A stretch of 64,000 nt of DNA. Origin: Vibrio coralliirubri (GTDB lineage: Bacteria > Pseudomonadota > Gammaproteobacteria > Enterobacterales > Vibrionaceae). Below, piece after piece: positions 1,517 to 60,024 of the stretch. A program made the translations under genes and the position numbers. How positions within the stretch are numbered: position 1 is the first letter of the stretch; every line of letters starts with the position of its first letter. Location: assembly GCF_024347375.1 (NCBI RefSeq), contig NZ_AP025471.1:1922001-1986000 (forward strand). The letters are read 5' to 3'. The notes below the pieces were generated by a model. That model worked only from the letters and a program-made list of their open reading frames with translations, did not search any database and had not been told where the DNA came from.

Positions 1517-2437
1517 TTAGTCAGCGTTACGCTCTGCGAACTTCTCTAGTCCTAGAACTAAGGCAATCGCAACAAACATCATCACAATCGCCATGACAAG
1601 TTGAGAAGGCTGAGAGGTTACGGCTTCAAAATCAAATGGTGATAGGTTTTCTTGAATCAGAGGAACTTGTTCACCTTTAGAGTTTGTGCGCCAGCTGATG
1701 GTCTCTTTCCACGGCCAGATCTTAGGTAGCGTACCGATCATCAAACCGGTTAAGAATACCAATGTGAAATCGCGGAATGAGCGTAGTAACCAAGAGAGTA
1801 CGTGCGAGAAAGTCAGTAGGCCGATCACACAGCCACTGAGGAATAGCGCAAGCACATCGATTTGGAACTCTTTAACTGCACCAAGAACTGGGCCATACAT
1901 ACCAATCAATAGCAGAATGAAGCTACCCGAGATACCCGGCAAAATCATCGCACAGATAGCAATCGCACCTGCTATGAGAACATTGATGCTAGTCGGTTCC
2001 ATTTGCAGCGGCTTAAGCACGGTAATGCTATAAGCGAAAGCAACGCCAAGCAGCAAAAACACGAAGCGAATCATATCGCGTTTCTCTACTTGCTTAAGAA
2101 TATGGAAAACCGATACCAAGATCAGGCCGAAGAAGAAAGACCACAGTGGAACAGGGTGGGTGACCAATAACCAAGAAATCAGTTTTGCAAATGTCGCAAT
2201 GCTCGTGAATACGCCTGCGAACAGTGAAATTAGGAAGAAACCATTGATGTGATTAAACGCGGCTTTGAAGCCTTCGCGTTTCCATAAGCCAAGTACGCTA
2301 GGGTTAATTCTGCGAATGCTTTCTAGCAGCGTATCGTAGATACCAGTGATGAATGCGATGGTTCCGCCCGACACGCCAGGAACAACGTCTGCTGCGCCCA
2401 TAGCCATGCCTTTGAAAAAAGTACTTAAGTAGTTCAT
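1517..2437 (-). CDS. popT: DUF368 membrane protein, probable undecaprenyl-phosphate translocase (PopT type)
   Basis: A polytopic inner-membrane protein of about 306 residues with roughly eight hydrophobic segments and the DUF368 signature near the N terminus (GAADVVPGVSGGTIAF) and again mid-protein (ILPGISGSFILLLIG). DUF368 proteins have been shown to return the lipid carrier C55-P across the membrane for reuse in cell-envelope synthesis; the Vibrio cholerae chromosome II homologue is the founding PopT. The open frame extends upstream to a TTG at 2476, but the ATG at 2437 (MNYLSTFFKG) fits the family start better. It is a single gene with its own terminator, and faces away from the qrr gene. 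Confidence 0.85.
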   Translation of the reverse strand: MNYLSTFFKGMAMGAADVVPGVSGGTIAFITGIYDTLLESIRRINPSVLGLWKREGFKAAFNHINGFFLISLFAGVFTSIATFAKLISWLLVTHPVPLWSFFFGLILVSVFHILKQVEKRDMIRFVFLLLGVAFAYSITVLKPLQMEPTSINVLIAGAIAICAMILPGISGSFILLLIGMYGPVLGAVKEFQIDVLALFLSGCVIGLLTFSHVLSWLLRSFRDFTLVFLTGLMIGTLPKIWPWKETISWRTNSKGEQVPLIQENLSPFDFEAVTSQPSQLVMAIVMMFVAIALVLGLEKFAERNAD

Positions 2438-2650
2438 TGCTTCATAGAGTTGAGGATGATTTTGTGCAGTATACAAACTTTAGTGTAAAAAAAGTATGAA
2501 TATGCTTTTGGGGAAAGGCTTTTATTACTCTATTAATTGTAACGCAATAAGTTGAAGTGAATATTTGCCTAACATTTACATAACAACCACTTAGTGATTT
2601 GTCATTAACAGCAGAGATGAAACTGATCTCTTATCGATATTGCATCTTGG

Positions 2651-2663
2651 TTGCATTATGCAA
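2651..2663 (+). promoter_or_regulatory. LuxO-type activator site upstream of qrr
   Basis: TTGCATTATGCAA is a perfect inverted repeat matching the TTGCA-N3-TGCAA pattern of LuxO binding sites upstream of qrr genes. It lies about 100-113 bases before the predicted transcription start, normal for a sigma-54 enhancer. Additional half sites (TTGCA at 2671, GCAA at 2685) follow on the right and may form a second site. Confidence 0.75.
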
Positions 2664-2736
2664 ATGCACTTTGCAATTCGCATGGCAAATTCATGGTTTT
2701 TATGCGATGCAGGGCTTATAAAACGTCGAATAAAAG

Positions 2737-2753
2737 TTGGCACGCTAACTGCA
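2737..2753 (+). promoter_or_regulatory. Sigma-54 promoter of qrr
   Basis: TTGGCACG at 2737-2744 and CTGCA at 2749-2753 form the -24/-12 elements. The invariant GG and GC are separated by exactly 10 bases, and the start predicted 12 bases further on falls at the TGACCCT start of the sRNA. Qrr genes are transcribed by RpoN with phosphorylated LuxO. Confidence 0.85.
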
Positions 2754-2763
2754 TTAGATACAT

Positions 2764-2874
2764 TGACCCTTCTTAAGCCGAGGGTCACCTAGCCAACTGA
2801 CGTTGTTAGTGAACTTATGATTTGTTCACAAATATATAGAGCCAATCGCGATTATTGCGGTTGGCTATTTTTTT
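2764..2874 (+). ncRNA. qrr: Qrr quorum-sensing regulatory sRNA
   Basis: About 110 nt. The core at 2783-2812 (GGGTCACCTAGCCAACTGAC followed by GTTGTTAGTG) matches from memory the near-invariant block of Vibrio Qrr sRNAs that pairs with luxR/hapR-type, aphA, luxO and luxMN mRNAs via Hfq. Stem 1 pairs GACCCT (2765-2770) with AGGGTC (2781-2786). A later stem pairs GTGAAC with GTTCAC. The last is the terminator stem GCCAATCGC/GCGGTTGGC followed by seven T. A sigma-54 promoter and LuxO-type site lie upstream. Vibrios carry four or five Qrr genes; which number this is cannot be told here, since it is not next to luxO. Confidence 0.93.
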
Positions 2875-2886
2875 GCCTGTCGTTTG

Positions 2887-2918
2887 GCTAACTGCTAACT
2901 GCTAACTGCTAACTGCTA
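2887..2918. repeat. Short tandem repeat, 7-bp unit GCTAACT
   Basis: Four full copies plus a partial fifth, 13 bases past the end of the qrr terminator. No coding role is visible. Confidence 0.9.
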
Positions 2919-2978
2919 TTTCCCCCATGTTCCAAGCAAAAAAAAAGCTAGCCACCATTGGCGACTAGCTTAAACTTT

Positions 2979-3099
2979 TCTCGAATCTCGAATCTCGAAT
3001 CTCGAATCTCGAATCTCGAATCTCGAATCTCGAATCTCGAATCTCGAATCTCGAATCTCGAATCTCGAATCTCGAATCTCGAATCTCGAATCTCGAATC
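2979..3099. repeat. Heptamer array TCTCGAA, left part (17 copies)
   Basis: Seventeen perfect head-to-tail copies of TCTCGAA and the first bases of another. The array is interrupted by the IS3-family element and resumes on its other side at 4352. The spurious open frame across it encodes a repeated IRDSRFE peptide and is not a gene. Confidence 0.95.
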
Positions 3100-3147
3100 T
3101 GATGTGACCCCATAAAAGTAGACACTTAATACAGAGCATTGAGTGTC

Positions 3148-3462
3148 ATGAAAGTAAAATCACAAAGACAATATACAGACGAATTTAAACGAGAAGCTGT
3201 TCAGCGATCTCTCGATTCTTCTGATACCGTTAAGTCAGTAGCACTATCCTTAGGAATATCGCCGGTGCTACTTTCTAAATGGAGATGCCAAATGACATCG
3301 AAAAAGACTAACTCCCTCCCAATACCTAACCACGGCCCCGAAAAATCCTTTGCACAACTGGAGAAAGAGATCCGTCAATTGAAAAAGAAGCTTGAGATGG
3401 CAGAGCTGGAGAATGATTTCTTAAAGGAAGCGAAGGCTTTCTTCGACAGCCAAAAAGAATAA
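3148..3462 (+). CDS. IS3-family transposase OrfA (helix-turn-helix subunit)
   Basis: About 104 residues from the ATG at 3148 (a TTG at 3139 is also in frame). The N-terminal region (YTDEFKREAVQRSLDSSDTV with SVALSLGISPVLLSKW) is an IS3 OrfA helix-turn-helix that binds the inverted repeats. The C-terminal half (FAQLEKEIRQLKKKLEMAEL) is a leucine-zipper-like coiled coil for multimerisation. The stop follows an AAAAAG run at 3452-3457, where a -1 slip enters the orfB frame. Confidence 0.9.
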   Translation: MKVKSQRQYTDEFKREAVQRSLDSSDTVKSVALSLGISPVLLSKWRCQMTSKKTNSLPIPNHGPEKSFAQLEKEIRQLKKKLEMAELENDFLKEAKAFFDSQKE

Positions 3463-3491
3463 GGTTCGAGTATATCCTTAAGAAGGCCAGT

Positions 3492-4319
3492 GTGAAGCTT
3501 CCTGTCATACGACTATGCCAATGGTTGGGTGTTTCTAAAGCGGGTTATTACAAGTGGCTAACAAGGAAACCATCGAAGCGAGAGACAGACAATGAGTCTT
3601 TAAGTCACTACTTGAGGAGAGAAAGCAAAGCTCAGTATTGTATTCCAGGCTATCGAAAGCTTTGGGAAGCAGCGGTCGCTAACGGCTTTATTTGTAATAA
3701 AAAGCGAGTACAGAGGCTTCTGCAGAATATGGGCTATCGCTCTTGCGCGAGCAAGAAGCGATATGGACGAGCACCAAGACAAAATACGCTTATACCTGCC
3801 TATAACATTCTTGCCCGTCAATTTAAGGTGGATAAACCCGATCGAGTTTGGGTGTCAGATATAACTCAGGTGCGCTGTACTGATGGTTGGCAATACCTGT
3901 GCGTCGTCTTAGATTTGTTTTCACGCAAAGTGATTGGTTGGTCGACAAGTCGCATTAATAACGCAAAGTTAGTGCTAAGAAGCCTGAATAAGGCTTGGAA
4001 ACAAAGGCAGCCCTTAGGTCACGAGCTTTTGTTTCACTCCGATCAAGGTATACAGTATCGAGCGTTGGAGACGATCCGTTGGCACCGTAAACGAAAGATT
4101 AAAGTCAGCATGTCGAGAAAAGGAAACTGTTGGGACAACGCTTGTTCCGAAAGCTTCTTTGCGCAATATAAGAAAGAGTGGATGAACAACTTAGATCAGC
4201 TTTCACGACAAGAAATGACGATGCAGAGTCGAATTTATATCGATACCTATTATAATCCAGTAAGAAGACATGGGACTCTAGGTGGAGTGAGTCCCATGGA
4301 CTTTGAACTAATCAACTAA
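3492..4319 (+). CDS. IS3-family transposase OrfB (DDE integrase)
   Basis: 275 residues from a GTG at 3492. The rve/DDE core is present: D in WVSDITQVRC, D in FHSDQGIQY, E in NACSESFFAQYKKEW. The frame is open upstream of the GTG back to the AAAAAG run at 3452-3457, reading K-R-I-R-F-E-Y-I-L-K-K, so the working enzyme is most likely an OrfAB fusion made by -1 frameshifting, as is usual for IS3. No internal stop or missing motif is seen. Confidence 0.93.
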   Translation: MKLPVIRLCQWLGVSKAGYYKWLTRKPSKRETDNESLSHYLRRESKAQYCIPGYRKLWEAAVANGFICNKKRVQRLLQNMGYRSCASKKRYGRAPRQNTLIPAYNILARQFKVDKPDRVWVSDITQVRCTDGWQYLCVVLDLFSRKVIGWSTSRINNAKLVLRSLNKAWKQRQPLGHELLFHSDQGIQYRALETIRWHRKRKIKVSMSRKGNCWDNACSESFFAQYKKEWMNNLDQLSRQEMTMQSRIYIDTYYNPVRRHGTLGGVSPMDFELIN

Positions 4320-4351
4320 ACCCCTGTGTCTACTTTTTAGGGGCCATATCA

Positions 4352-4391
4352 AATCTCGAATCTCGAATCTCGAATCTCGAATCTCGAATCT
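4352..4391. repeat. Heptamer array TCTCGAA, right part (5 copies)
   Basis: Five copies of TCTCGAA resume after the IS and end three bases before the malT stop codon. With the left part, the pre-insertion array held about 22-23 units. Confidence 0.92.
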
Positions 4392-4394
4392 GTT

Positions 4395-7103
4395 TTAGTA
4401 CCCCATCAACTGCAGCAAGTTCTCCGCTGTGCTGATTGCTTCTTTACGGTTAGCGATGTTGAGCTTTTGGTAAAGGTTACGGATGTGAGTCTTGATCGTG
4501 GTACCCGCTACATCGAGTTCTTGAGCGATCTGCTCGTTACTGAACCCTGAATAGATCAGACCAAGCACTTGCCATTCACGCTGGGTGAGTGGGCTAGTGC
4601 GCACCAGCTCAGGAATATTCGGGTGATTAACCAAGTTTTCAACAAAGTCTTCATCGAAGTGAACCGAGCGACTGCGTTGGGTGGTGGAGATATCCTTCAT
4701 GATTTGTTGTGCGCGGTGACGTTCTAAATCACCTAAGCCAGGCTTGTTGCTCAACTTATCCAAGATATGCCCGATAGTCCCACCGTCGACTAAGAAGTTA
4801 CCGACCATACCGGTTTGGTTAGTCATATGAAGCGCTTCTTCAAGCAGTACACGTGCGCTGTCTTCATCGTTAATTTGTGTGCGTAACACGGCTTCAACGA
4901 TCAAGTTGCGGTTGGTGTCTGTAATCAGGTGCGAACGCTGGGCTTCACTCTTAAGGAAGGTCAGCGCTTCTTCGGCTTCTTCGTATTGCTCAAGGATGAT
5001 GTGTGCACGAACGATGTTTCGCCACTGAAGTTGGCAGAAGTGGTTGCTTGCCGATTCAGGTCGAACAGCTACACTCAGCCAATCACGTATCGCCTCTTTA
5101 TCACCTTTTACTTGCCAGAACAGAATCAAAGAAAGAGAAGCGTTCGCTGTCCAATCTACGTGGTAAGTCGATTGACGCAATAGGTGCTGAATCTGGTCAA
5201 TAAACTTCGACGCTTTATCAATCTCACCGCGGCTCAATGAAATACGAGCCAACATAGAGTAGCTGTGTAGATGTTTACTCGGAGAGTGGTGTCCAAGGAT
5301 ATCTAAGCCTTTGTAGCAACACTCTTCCGCTTCATCTAGTCGGTTCCAACACCAGAAGATCTGAGCGCGAACACGCAGCAAAAATTCATGCAGAGGCACG
5401 TATTGAAGCTGGTGCTCTTCAATCAATTTGAATGCACTGTCTTGTAGCTCAAATGCAGCTTGAACATAACCTTGAGCAATCAAGATTTCGCTTTGTTGCA
5501 GAATCGCCCATAGAGCCTGATGATAAACCTGATACTGGCGTGCCAGTTTTTCTGTCTGTTGCATCATCGGTAGCGCACGGCTTAGGTTACCCATTACGTG
5601 ATTCACTTCGCCCACAACCGAGGTGGCGACAATGCGGCTACGATAAACTGTGGTGTTCAACTGACTCAACGAAAGCTCAGCCAATTCCAACGCTTTCTCA
5701 GGCTCATTGCTGTTGATGGCAACTTGTGCGCGTAAGGCGTTGTATTGGCCTTGCTGCTGAGTATCGAGTTCAATGTTTCGAGCTTGATATTGAGTCTCAG
5801 CCTCTTCCAACAAAGTACCCACTTGATCATAACGGTGCTGACTTTGTGCAAGCCAAGCACGCAACATGGATAGTTTAGGTTCACTGTAAAGTTGGTCGGT
5901 GGTCAGTTGCTTGATCGCCATCTCTAGTGACGACAGCTCACCTTGGTTGAACATAGGCCAGCCGTGTTCAGTCAGGATTTGAATGATCAGTTCTGGATCT
6001 TCAGCGCGCTGTGCGTGACGTAGTGCTTGGTGTGGTGTGTTTTGCTTGATCCACGCTTTTGCAGCACTTCGATGCAGCTCTGCTTCTTGCTGAGGAATTC
6101 GAGCTTGGCGCTCATGTGCGAGGAATTCACCAAACAAGTTATGGAAGCGATACCAGTTCTTTTCTCCCTCAAGCGGGTAGATGAACAAACCAAAACGGTT
6201 GAGTGATTCGATCATACCTAACGCATCTTCACGCTGTGTAAGCGCACACACAAGTTCATCGTTGAAGTGATCAAGCACAGAACATTGCATCAAGAACTGT
6301 CGGGTTTCTTTGTCTAGCAGGTCGAATACTTCTTCAACCAAGTAGTCCCAAAGATGGGCGTGGTTAAAGTGAGAGAATGACTCTGCGGACTGTGCAAGAG
6401 TGCGTTTTTGGTGTTGTGCTTGCAGCGCGATAAGTTGCAGTGCAGAAGGCCAACCTTCTACATAACTACAAATACTGTCTGCCGTGGTGTCATCAATGCC
6501 GTCGGCTACGCGTTGGTTGAAAAAGCGTGTGGTTTCTTCGGTATCAAACGCCAACGAGTCATTACCTAATTCGATCATTAAGTCACGAACGCGCAGGTTT
6601 GCTGTACCAAGTGGTGGCGTACCACGACTGGTGACAACCAACGTTAGGTTGTCGGGCATGTGTTTGAGGAAGAAGCGCATGGCTTCGTGGATGTCGTCAT
6701 TGTTGACCAAGTGATAGTCATCCAACACCAGAAAACACTCGCGATGGAATTCCGACATCTCGGCAAACACTTCACTTAATAAAGAATGCAGCGATGAAAA
6801 TTGTCGTTTTTCTGCCAGCTTTTGGGCATTCGGGCAGGCATTTTGGGTCGCTTTATTAAGTGATTGAAGTAGGTAGTTGATAAAGCGGAAGGCATCGTTG
6901 TCGCTATCATCAATGCTGTACCAACCCACATTGGGTTTATCTACCAACCATTGTGCAGCCATGGTGGTTTTGCCGTAGCCCGCTGGAGAGCGGAACAACA
7001 CAAGCTTATAGCAATCTGCATTGTGAAGCAGATCGAGAACCCTAGGTCGTAGGATTGCATTATGTAAGCGGCCGGGACGAGTCAGTTTCGAAGGGATCCA
7101 CAT
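4395..7103 (-). CDS. malT: MalT, ATP- and maltotriose-dependent activator of the maltose regulon
   Basis: 902 residues, the same size as E. coli MalT. N-terminal STAND-type ATPase with Walker A in [15 protein letters not shown] (about residues 38-52) and a Walker B-like VLDDYH. A long helical-repeat sensor region spans about 420-810. A C-terminal LuxR/FixJ helix-turn-helix (about 830-890) contains [20 protein letters not shown]. MalT oligomerises with ATP and maltotriose and binds GGGGA(T/G)GAGG-type boxes to activate mal promoters. It is divergent from malP-malQ. The stop codon nearly touches the heptamer array, so no ordinary terminator separates malT from the repeats and IS. Confidence 0.96.
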
Positions 7104-55060: not shown

Positions 55061-55165
55061 CTAGCTTGTCCTCGATCGATCAAATTTTAAGTTTTACTGC
55101 TTATCATTATAAGAAATTTTTGGGTCAGCAGTAACTGTAGGAATTGGTAAGTATTGAGTGAGTAA

Positions 55166-59465: not shown

Positions 59466-59489
59466 GCTGTACTCTATAAGAAAGAAAAA

Positions 59490-59515
59490 GAGCGACCGTT
59501 AGGTCGCTCTATATT
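59490..59515 (+). terminator. Stem-loop just after malG
   Basis: GAGCGACC/GGTCGCTC, 4-base loop, followed by a weak TATATT. It may stop only part of the transcription. Confidence 0.65.
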
Positions 59516-59590
59516 GGCATTTTTATTACATCATTTGGTTTGGCCGCCGATCAGTAATAAAAATAACCCTCAGGTTACGCATAGCTGGCT

Positions 59591-59631
59591 ACTAATCAGG
59601 TTCCTTACGCTATTAATGATTAGTGGTTTTT
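59591..59631 (+). other. Second stem-loop after malG
   Basis: ACTAATCA/TGATTAGT pairs across an 18-base loop, followed by GGTTTTT. Terminator-like but with a large loop. Confidence 0.5.
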
Positions 59632-59640
59632 GTAACTCTA

Positions 59641-59667
59641 ACCCAGGTATTTACTTGGGTTTTTTTA
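59641..59667 (+). terminator. Strong intrinsic terminator downstream of malG
   Basis: ACCCAGGTA/TACTTGGGT (one G-T wobble) followed by a run of seven T after the stem. Confidence 0.8.
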
Positions 59668-60024
59668 TGCCTGCTACTTTTTTTTTTGTATCAGCGTTAC
59701 TCGTCGACTATCGCGCTCTTATCTACTTTAAAACTCAAAGTTTCGAGTTACTTCTCTCCTAAATACCGACCACTTCATTTTGGTTACTTGTAGAAATGAA
59801 CTAGTCTCACAAATCAGACACTCAGTATAAGTGGCCGTTGTACTATTGATATGTTGCTAATATTCCAATGCGTGATACTTCAATGATTTGTATGCAACAA
59901 AACCTGAAATTGCACTGAAAATGTATAGGTAAGCGAGAGGTCGTTACAGAGTCTTTAAGTAGTATTTGTGAGGATTATGAAAGTGGCTTTATTTATATGT
60001 CTGGTTTTTGGCGGGAGTTAGACG

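Follow-up and report, generated by a model that had tools for sequence, protein, structure and literature searches.

A popT-linked Qrr small RNA gene, most likely qrr2, in a Vibrio genome

The window analysed here, a continuous stretch of 64,000 nucleotides, carries what by its sequence is a genuine, intact and ordinary Qrr small RNA gene at 2764-2874, most likely the ortholog of qrr2. Taken as a whole, the evidence is best explained by a splendidus-clade qrr2 whose LuxO/sigma54-activated RNA acts in quorum sensing, a reading in which we place very high confidence. Qrr2 is already known in kind. Across Vibrio both the gene and the place where it sits are conserved, as is the layout of its promoter, and the type has been published; the preliminary description of this DNA had overrated the novelty. 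The analysis bears out a quorum-sensing set of four Qrr genes in this strain, of which the window copy is placed as qrr2. Most of the Vibrio loci examined have a Qrr gene at this position, and the neighbouring popT gene serves as a positional landmark for naming Qrr paralogs. The features of the region are collected in Table 1.

Table 1. Features of the popT-malT region, with coordinates in the window
Feature	Position	Strand	Basis
popT (polyprenyl-phosphate transporter), divergent neighbour	1517..2437	-	NF052564, 506 bits
Weak LuxR/HapR (MQSR)-type box	2588..2607		Matrix score 7.8; place enriched for such boxes across Vibrio
LuxO site 1, perfect, TTGCATTATGCAA	2651..2663		Centre at about -107
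LuxO-like site 2, ATGCACTTTGCAA	2664..2676		One mismatch
sigma-54 promoter, TGGCACGCTAACTGCA	2738..2753	+	Motif match; same element in 71/71 popT-linked Qrr genes
Qrr sRNA gene, most likely qrr2	2764..2874	+	RF00378, fold z, terminator scan; full stem-loop 1, invariant core, further stem-loop, terminator
GCTAACT heptamer array, 4.6 copies, immediately past the terminator	2887..2918		
Terminator-like hairpin, malT strand	2945..2971	-	Terminator scan
TCTCGAA heptamer array, left part, 17.4 copies	2979..3100		
IS3-family insertion sequence, inside the TCTCGAA array	3100..4351	+	OrfB NF033516, 278.8 bits; ends by eye
TCTCGAA heptamer array, right part, 5.7 copies	4352..4391		
malT, convergent neighbour	4395..7103	-	NF003420, 1416 bits

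The RNA gene, its genome and its downstream surroundings

Membership in the RNA family was read directly from the DNA. The Rfam covariance model RF00378 matches 2764-2874 on the forward strand from end to end (model positions 1-108 of 108) at 112.3 bits (E 6.5e-21), where the gathering cut-off is 50 bits. The Qrr core CCUAGCCAACUGACGUUGUUAGUG occupies 2788-2811, with GCCAACTGAC at 2792. The RNA folds at -38.3 kcal/mol (z -5.43), a value that none of 200 shuffles equalled, and a terminator-like stem at 2840-2866 followed by a T tract closes it, so both the stem-loops and the intrinsic terminator of a Qrr RNA are present in this copy. The preliminary description, which had called a Qrr gene with an invariant core, stems and a terminator, is borne out by all three analyses, and the absence of a covariance-model hit, which it had given as grounds for refutation, did not occur. 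A chance match as the source of the signal is ruled out by the covariance score, and small open reading frames overlapping the region were judged by eye to be spurious.

The genome comprises 5.74 Mb in two contigs, and four Qrr genes in it score above the cut-off: the large contig has one, at 74.8 bits, and the small contig three, at 110.4-112.7 bits. The large-contig gene (G000 C1:1107189-1107281) has uvrB on one side and luxO, followed by luxU, on the other, and is identified from this position as Qrr1. The window copy has neither that position nor the shortened stem-loop 1 of qrr1, its own stem-loop 1 being full; as had been proposed, it is an extra copy away from luxO, which sits with Qrr1 on the other contig. 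The genome also encodes the proteins that a Qrr circuit draws on, namely LuxO (866.9 bits, cut-off 800), LuxU (142.9 bits, cut-off 140), a LuxR/HapR homolog (405.1 bits, cut-off 350), RpoN and Hfq. An aphA-like gene has an AphA-type C-terminal domain (57 bits), and its protein matches none of the AphA-specific NCBIfam models. PopT is 97-100% identical to PopT of V. splendidus and near relatives, and from this identity we assign the genome to the splendidus clade.

The other two Qrr genes of chromosome 2 (G000 C2:1247327-1247436 and 1254778-1254887; L152) converge on an interval of about 7.3 kb that contains codBA and a diguanylate cyclase gene, and V. splendidus MOR1 (G242) has a similar pair about 7.5 kb apart. 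Elsewhere in the window, Rfam models of two further known families match: MicX sRNA at 59476-59668 (+, 194.3 bits) and malK-II RNA at 55094-55144 (-, 68.2 bits).

The neighbourhood is the one previously outlined, with popT (model cut-off 400 bits) on one side and a cluster of heptamer arrays and an IS3-family element on the other. With its ends set by eye, the IS starts about 226 bases past the end of the Qrr gene, close to the 230 first given, and its possible AATC target duplication is ambiguous within the heptamer repeat. Among 40 of 65 candidates that were scored, at least 10 copies of the IS in this genome, counting the one in the window, agree without a difference over 1250 bp; because of these the element looks recently mobile, which agrees with its having been called active-looking. 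One identical copy, at L158 (about 777-2026), and the luxR/hapR homolog are separated at the gene's 3' end by roughly 74 bp, which may be a coincidence given that there are at least 10 copies.

The IS is absent from the qrr2-malT interval in all 14 splendidus-clade relatives, where the gap of 107-164 bases is too short to hold it; the GCTAACT array was not seen in these 14 gaps, and the heptamer runs there are shorter, reaching about seven (L048). Has the insertion disabled the gene? The IS and the longer arrays lie directly downstream of the Qrr gene, as they might beside a decayed or silent copy, but the RNA body and its terminator are intact and shared with the 14 relatives, as are the sigma-54 element and the LuxO site, and the insertion lies 3' of the Qrr terminator. 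For this last reason we rejected decay through the IS, and a silent copy strikes us as extremely improbable. An intact qrr2 is what we retain, and the IS and arrays are probably without consequence for it, since they fall 3' of the terminator and between two convergent genes, qrr2 and malT. The hairpin at 2945-2971 is presumably the malT terminator.

Promoter elements and a LuxR-type box

Upstream of the RNA, the sigma-54-like element differs from the consensus used at one position and places GG at -25/-24 and GC at -13/-12 relative to 2764, the correct -24/-12 spacing that had been claimed for it. LuxO site 1, earlier described as a perfect palindrome about 100 bases upstream, is the only exact TTGCAN3TGCAA in the whole window. 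A second, LuxO-like site, absent from the preliminary description, abuts it directly.

Short promoter motifs alone are not rare in the window, and the case for these elements rests on position and conservation. Allowing up to one mismatch, the LuxO motif occurs 4 times against 4.9 expected; allowing up to two, the sigma-54 motif occurs 51 times against 39.5 expected, a count reached by 4 of 100 shuffles. Across 71 popT-linked Qrr genes of Vibrio, described below, the picture is sharper. Every one has the sigma-54 element at -25 to -27 (at -26 in 61), and the pattern TGGCAY-N6-TGCW occurs 74 times in the 2.04 Mb of the 80 popT loci, both strands counted. A LuxO site with at most one mismatch falls at -150 to -70 in 69 of the 71 (exact in 53), compared with 9 of 1420 random 80-bp segments of the same popT loci, a control whose segments could themselves overlap promoters. 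In the splendidus clade an exact LuxO site stands at -113/-114 in 14/14 loci (L035-L048). In 38 of the 71 promoters there are at least two sites, each with at most one mismatch. In V. fluvialis, according to the available text of PMC11443567, a qrr gene has one or two LuxO sites, and the most expressed qrr genes have close, paired sites.

Also absent from the preliminary description is a weak LuxR/HapR-type box whose start lies at -176. We scored it with a matrix built from 23 known or predicted sites and rerun without the two qrr2 sites among them. Its score is below those of all 23 training sites (at least 10.3) and between the 99.9th (5.2) and 99.99th (9.3) percentiles of the window, and the box lies outside the invariant blocks of a 15-sequence clade alignment. 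A box scoring at least 7.5 is found at the same place in 11 of 14 close relatives. With the matrix lacking the qrr2 sites, boxes of at least 7.5 start at -180 to -161 in 37 of the 71 popT-linked loci, against at most 4 of 71 for any other 20-bp interval, and boxes of at least 9.3 do so in 27, against at most 2; since the loci are related, these counts are of non-independent events. A probable LuxR box common to many qrr2 promoters is a by-product of the analysis. LuxR activates qrr2-4 in V. harveyi, according to the accessible part of PMC2680268, and LuxR feedback on the window qrr2 through the predicted box is plausible but unproven.

Paralog identity and the popT linkage

Which Qrr paralog is this? 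A search with PopT returned 161 relatives, the best 80 of which were used as named Vibrio loci; in 71 of these 80 an exact-core Qrr gene is found upstream of popT, no more than 1.5 kb away and likewise divergent from it. Among the nine others, the sequence fetched for the locus holds a Qrr gene at another place in two cases and no Qrr gene above the cut-off in seven.

Published signatures point to qrr2 at this position. The text of PMC3323551 available to us gives primer sequences and LuxR boxes for qrr2-4 in both V. harveyi and V. parahaemolyticus and places V. parahaemolyticus qrr2 between VPA1623 and VPA1624. We checked 14 popT-linked loci against these sequences, and two carry a qrr2 signature without mismatch: the V. 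owensii locus (L066) has the V. harveyi qrr2 LuxR box at its published -165, and L056 has a V. parahaemolyticus qrr2 primer. The V. harveyi and V. jasicida popT loci match qrr2 signatures within 1-2 mismatches. The window itself has no close match to any of the 15 published qrr2-4 signatures, primers and LuxR boxes together (4-9 mismatches each), so orthology is argued through these relatives. The portions of the literature at hand add that qrr1-4 occupy identical places in V. parahaemolyticus and V. cholerae (PMC8630636) and that V. splendidus has only Qrr1-4 (PMC3262071).

The window copy might instead be a qrr3 or qrr4 ortholog that now stands beside popT. Comparison of the genome's own four copies shows Qrr bodies so similar that RNA sequence barely separates paralogs, and the nearest of the 15 signatures to the window is a qrr3 primer inside the RNA body, at 4 mismatches. 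Against this, the position beside popT is shared by loci with qrr2 signatures at 0-3 mismatches (L056, L060, L063, L066, L068), and this genome has its two remaining chromosome-2 Qrr genes elsewhere, near codBA and a DEAD-box helicase gene. We consider a qrr3 or qrr4 origin very unlikely, and qrr2 is the name we keep.

The conserved linkage raises the further idea, compatible with the qrr2 assignment, that the stretch between popT and qrr2 serves quorum-sensing control in both directions and regulates popT as well. The linkage in 71 of 80 loci and the LuxR-type box about 150 bp upstream of the popT start would fit such a role, but linkage alone can persist without co-regulation, and qrr together with popT or DUF368 was not found among the matches listed in a literature text search; we think this idea unlikely. 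We are similarly doubtful that the long-conserved divergent arrangement is functional in the sense that phosphorylated LuxO and LuxR, acting in the shared region, also set popT expression. If they did, undecaprenyl-phosphate recycling would be tied to cell density.

The survey also yielded observations on Qrr genes in other Vibrio. V. coralliilyticus ATCC BAA-450 has four Qrr genes above the cut-off, including a Qrr1-type gene (81.3 bits; L195, about 5369-5464) with sigma-54 and LuxO elements, flanked by luxO-like and uvrB-like genes as judged by eye from translations. The accessible text of a 2025 survey (PMC11837519) gives three Qrr genes for this strain and no hit with a Qrr1 query, and a qrr1 missed by that survey is a lead. 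Nine Vibrio genomes (G068, G085, G111, G112, G131, G154, G155, G156, G195) have 6-8 Qrr genes above the cut-off, some of them only a few kb apart; a tenth genome that was re-searched (G073) has 5. Among 30 of the 75 Qrr matches that were fetched (L197-L226, 3 of them from G073), a sigma-54 element is kept in 29, and 23 have a LuxO site that departs from the motif at no more than one position. Qrr genes commonly number one to five per species, in the available text of PMC8043402, and a full-text search found no report of six, seven or nine qrr genes or of a qrr6; genomes exceeding the usual range are a second lead. At the sensitivity used, 11 of 196 genomes of the genus had no Qrr gene, two of them about 1 Mb in size and one 79% complete. 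In the popT-linked Qrr of V. proteolyticus (L090), stem-loop 1 is, by eye, unrelated in sequence yet self-complementary, and the core is kept; judging from these bases, aphA pairing region I would be lost.

Proposed mode of action and comparison with known Qrr genes

How would the gene work? At low cell density, phosphorylated LuxO bound to the paired sites at 2651-2676 would activate RNA polymerase-sigma54 at 2738-2753. The resulting RNA, about 110 nt long, would start near 2764 and end at the terminator (2840-2874). With Hfq, the invariant core would pair with luxR/hapR-type and luxO mRNAs and repress them, and stem-loop 1 together with the core would pair with aphA mRNA and activate it; feedback by LuxR, as published for qrr2, may come in through the LuxR-type box at about -176. 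The promoter elements, the conserved position and the regulator genes are all present in the DNA. The dependence on LuxO, sigma54 and Hfq, the targets and the cell-density control that we propose for the window qrr2 are carried over from other species.

Plausible pairing sites can be pointed to in this genome: GTTGGC just 5' of luxR, CTAGGTGA with CGGCTT upstream of aphA, and TGGCTAGG just 5' of luxO. As a set, pairing with these 5' regions was no better than with 70 mechanically called background gene starts, among which duplex energies ranked luxR 33, aphA 7 (for a stretch picked around its already seen site) and luxO 62. The longest Watson-Crick matches were 6 nt for luxR and 8 nt each for aphA and luxO, and 8 nt was also reached by 9 of the 70 background starts. 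The scores being uninformative, target assignment rests on published work in relatives. With up to two mismatches allowed, the Qrr core has 37 complementary matches genome-wide, 4 of which are the Qrr genes; a reversed control gives 16. The excess is unexplained, and none of the 11 inspected among the 33 non-Qrr complements is the recognisable start of a known Qrr target.

Set beside known systems, the window gene resembles most closely Qrr2 of V. harveyi and V. parahaemolyticus (VIBHAR_04846; VPA1623-1624 intergenic), as presented in the consulted text of PMC3323551. It shares with them a Qrr family RNA with a full stem-loop 1, a sigma-54 promoter with LuxO sites about 100 bp upstream and, in near relatives carrying their signatures, linkage to popT, whereas its LuxR-type box is weaker and lies about 11 bp further upstream (-176 versus -165). 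Qrr1, the genome's own luxO-linked copy, has the same core and promoter logic but, at 93 nt and 74.8 bits, is the shorter of the two and is missing stem-loop 1 bases present in the window copy. Compared by count, not copy by copy, the genome agrees with V. splendidus of the same clade, for which the accessible part of PMC3262071 gives the same number of Qrr genes, four.
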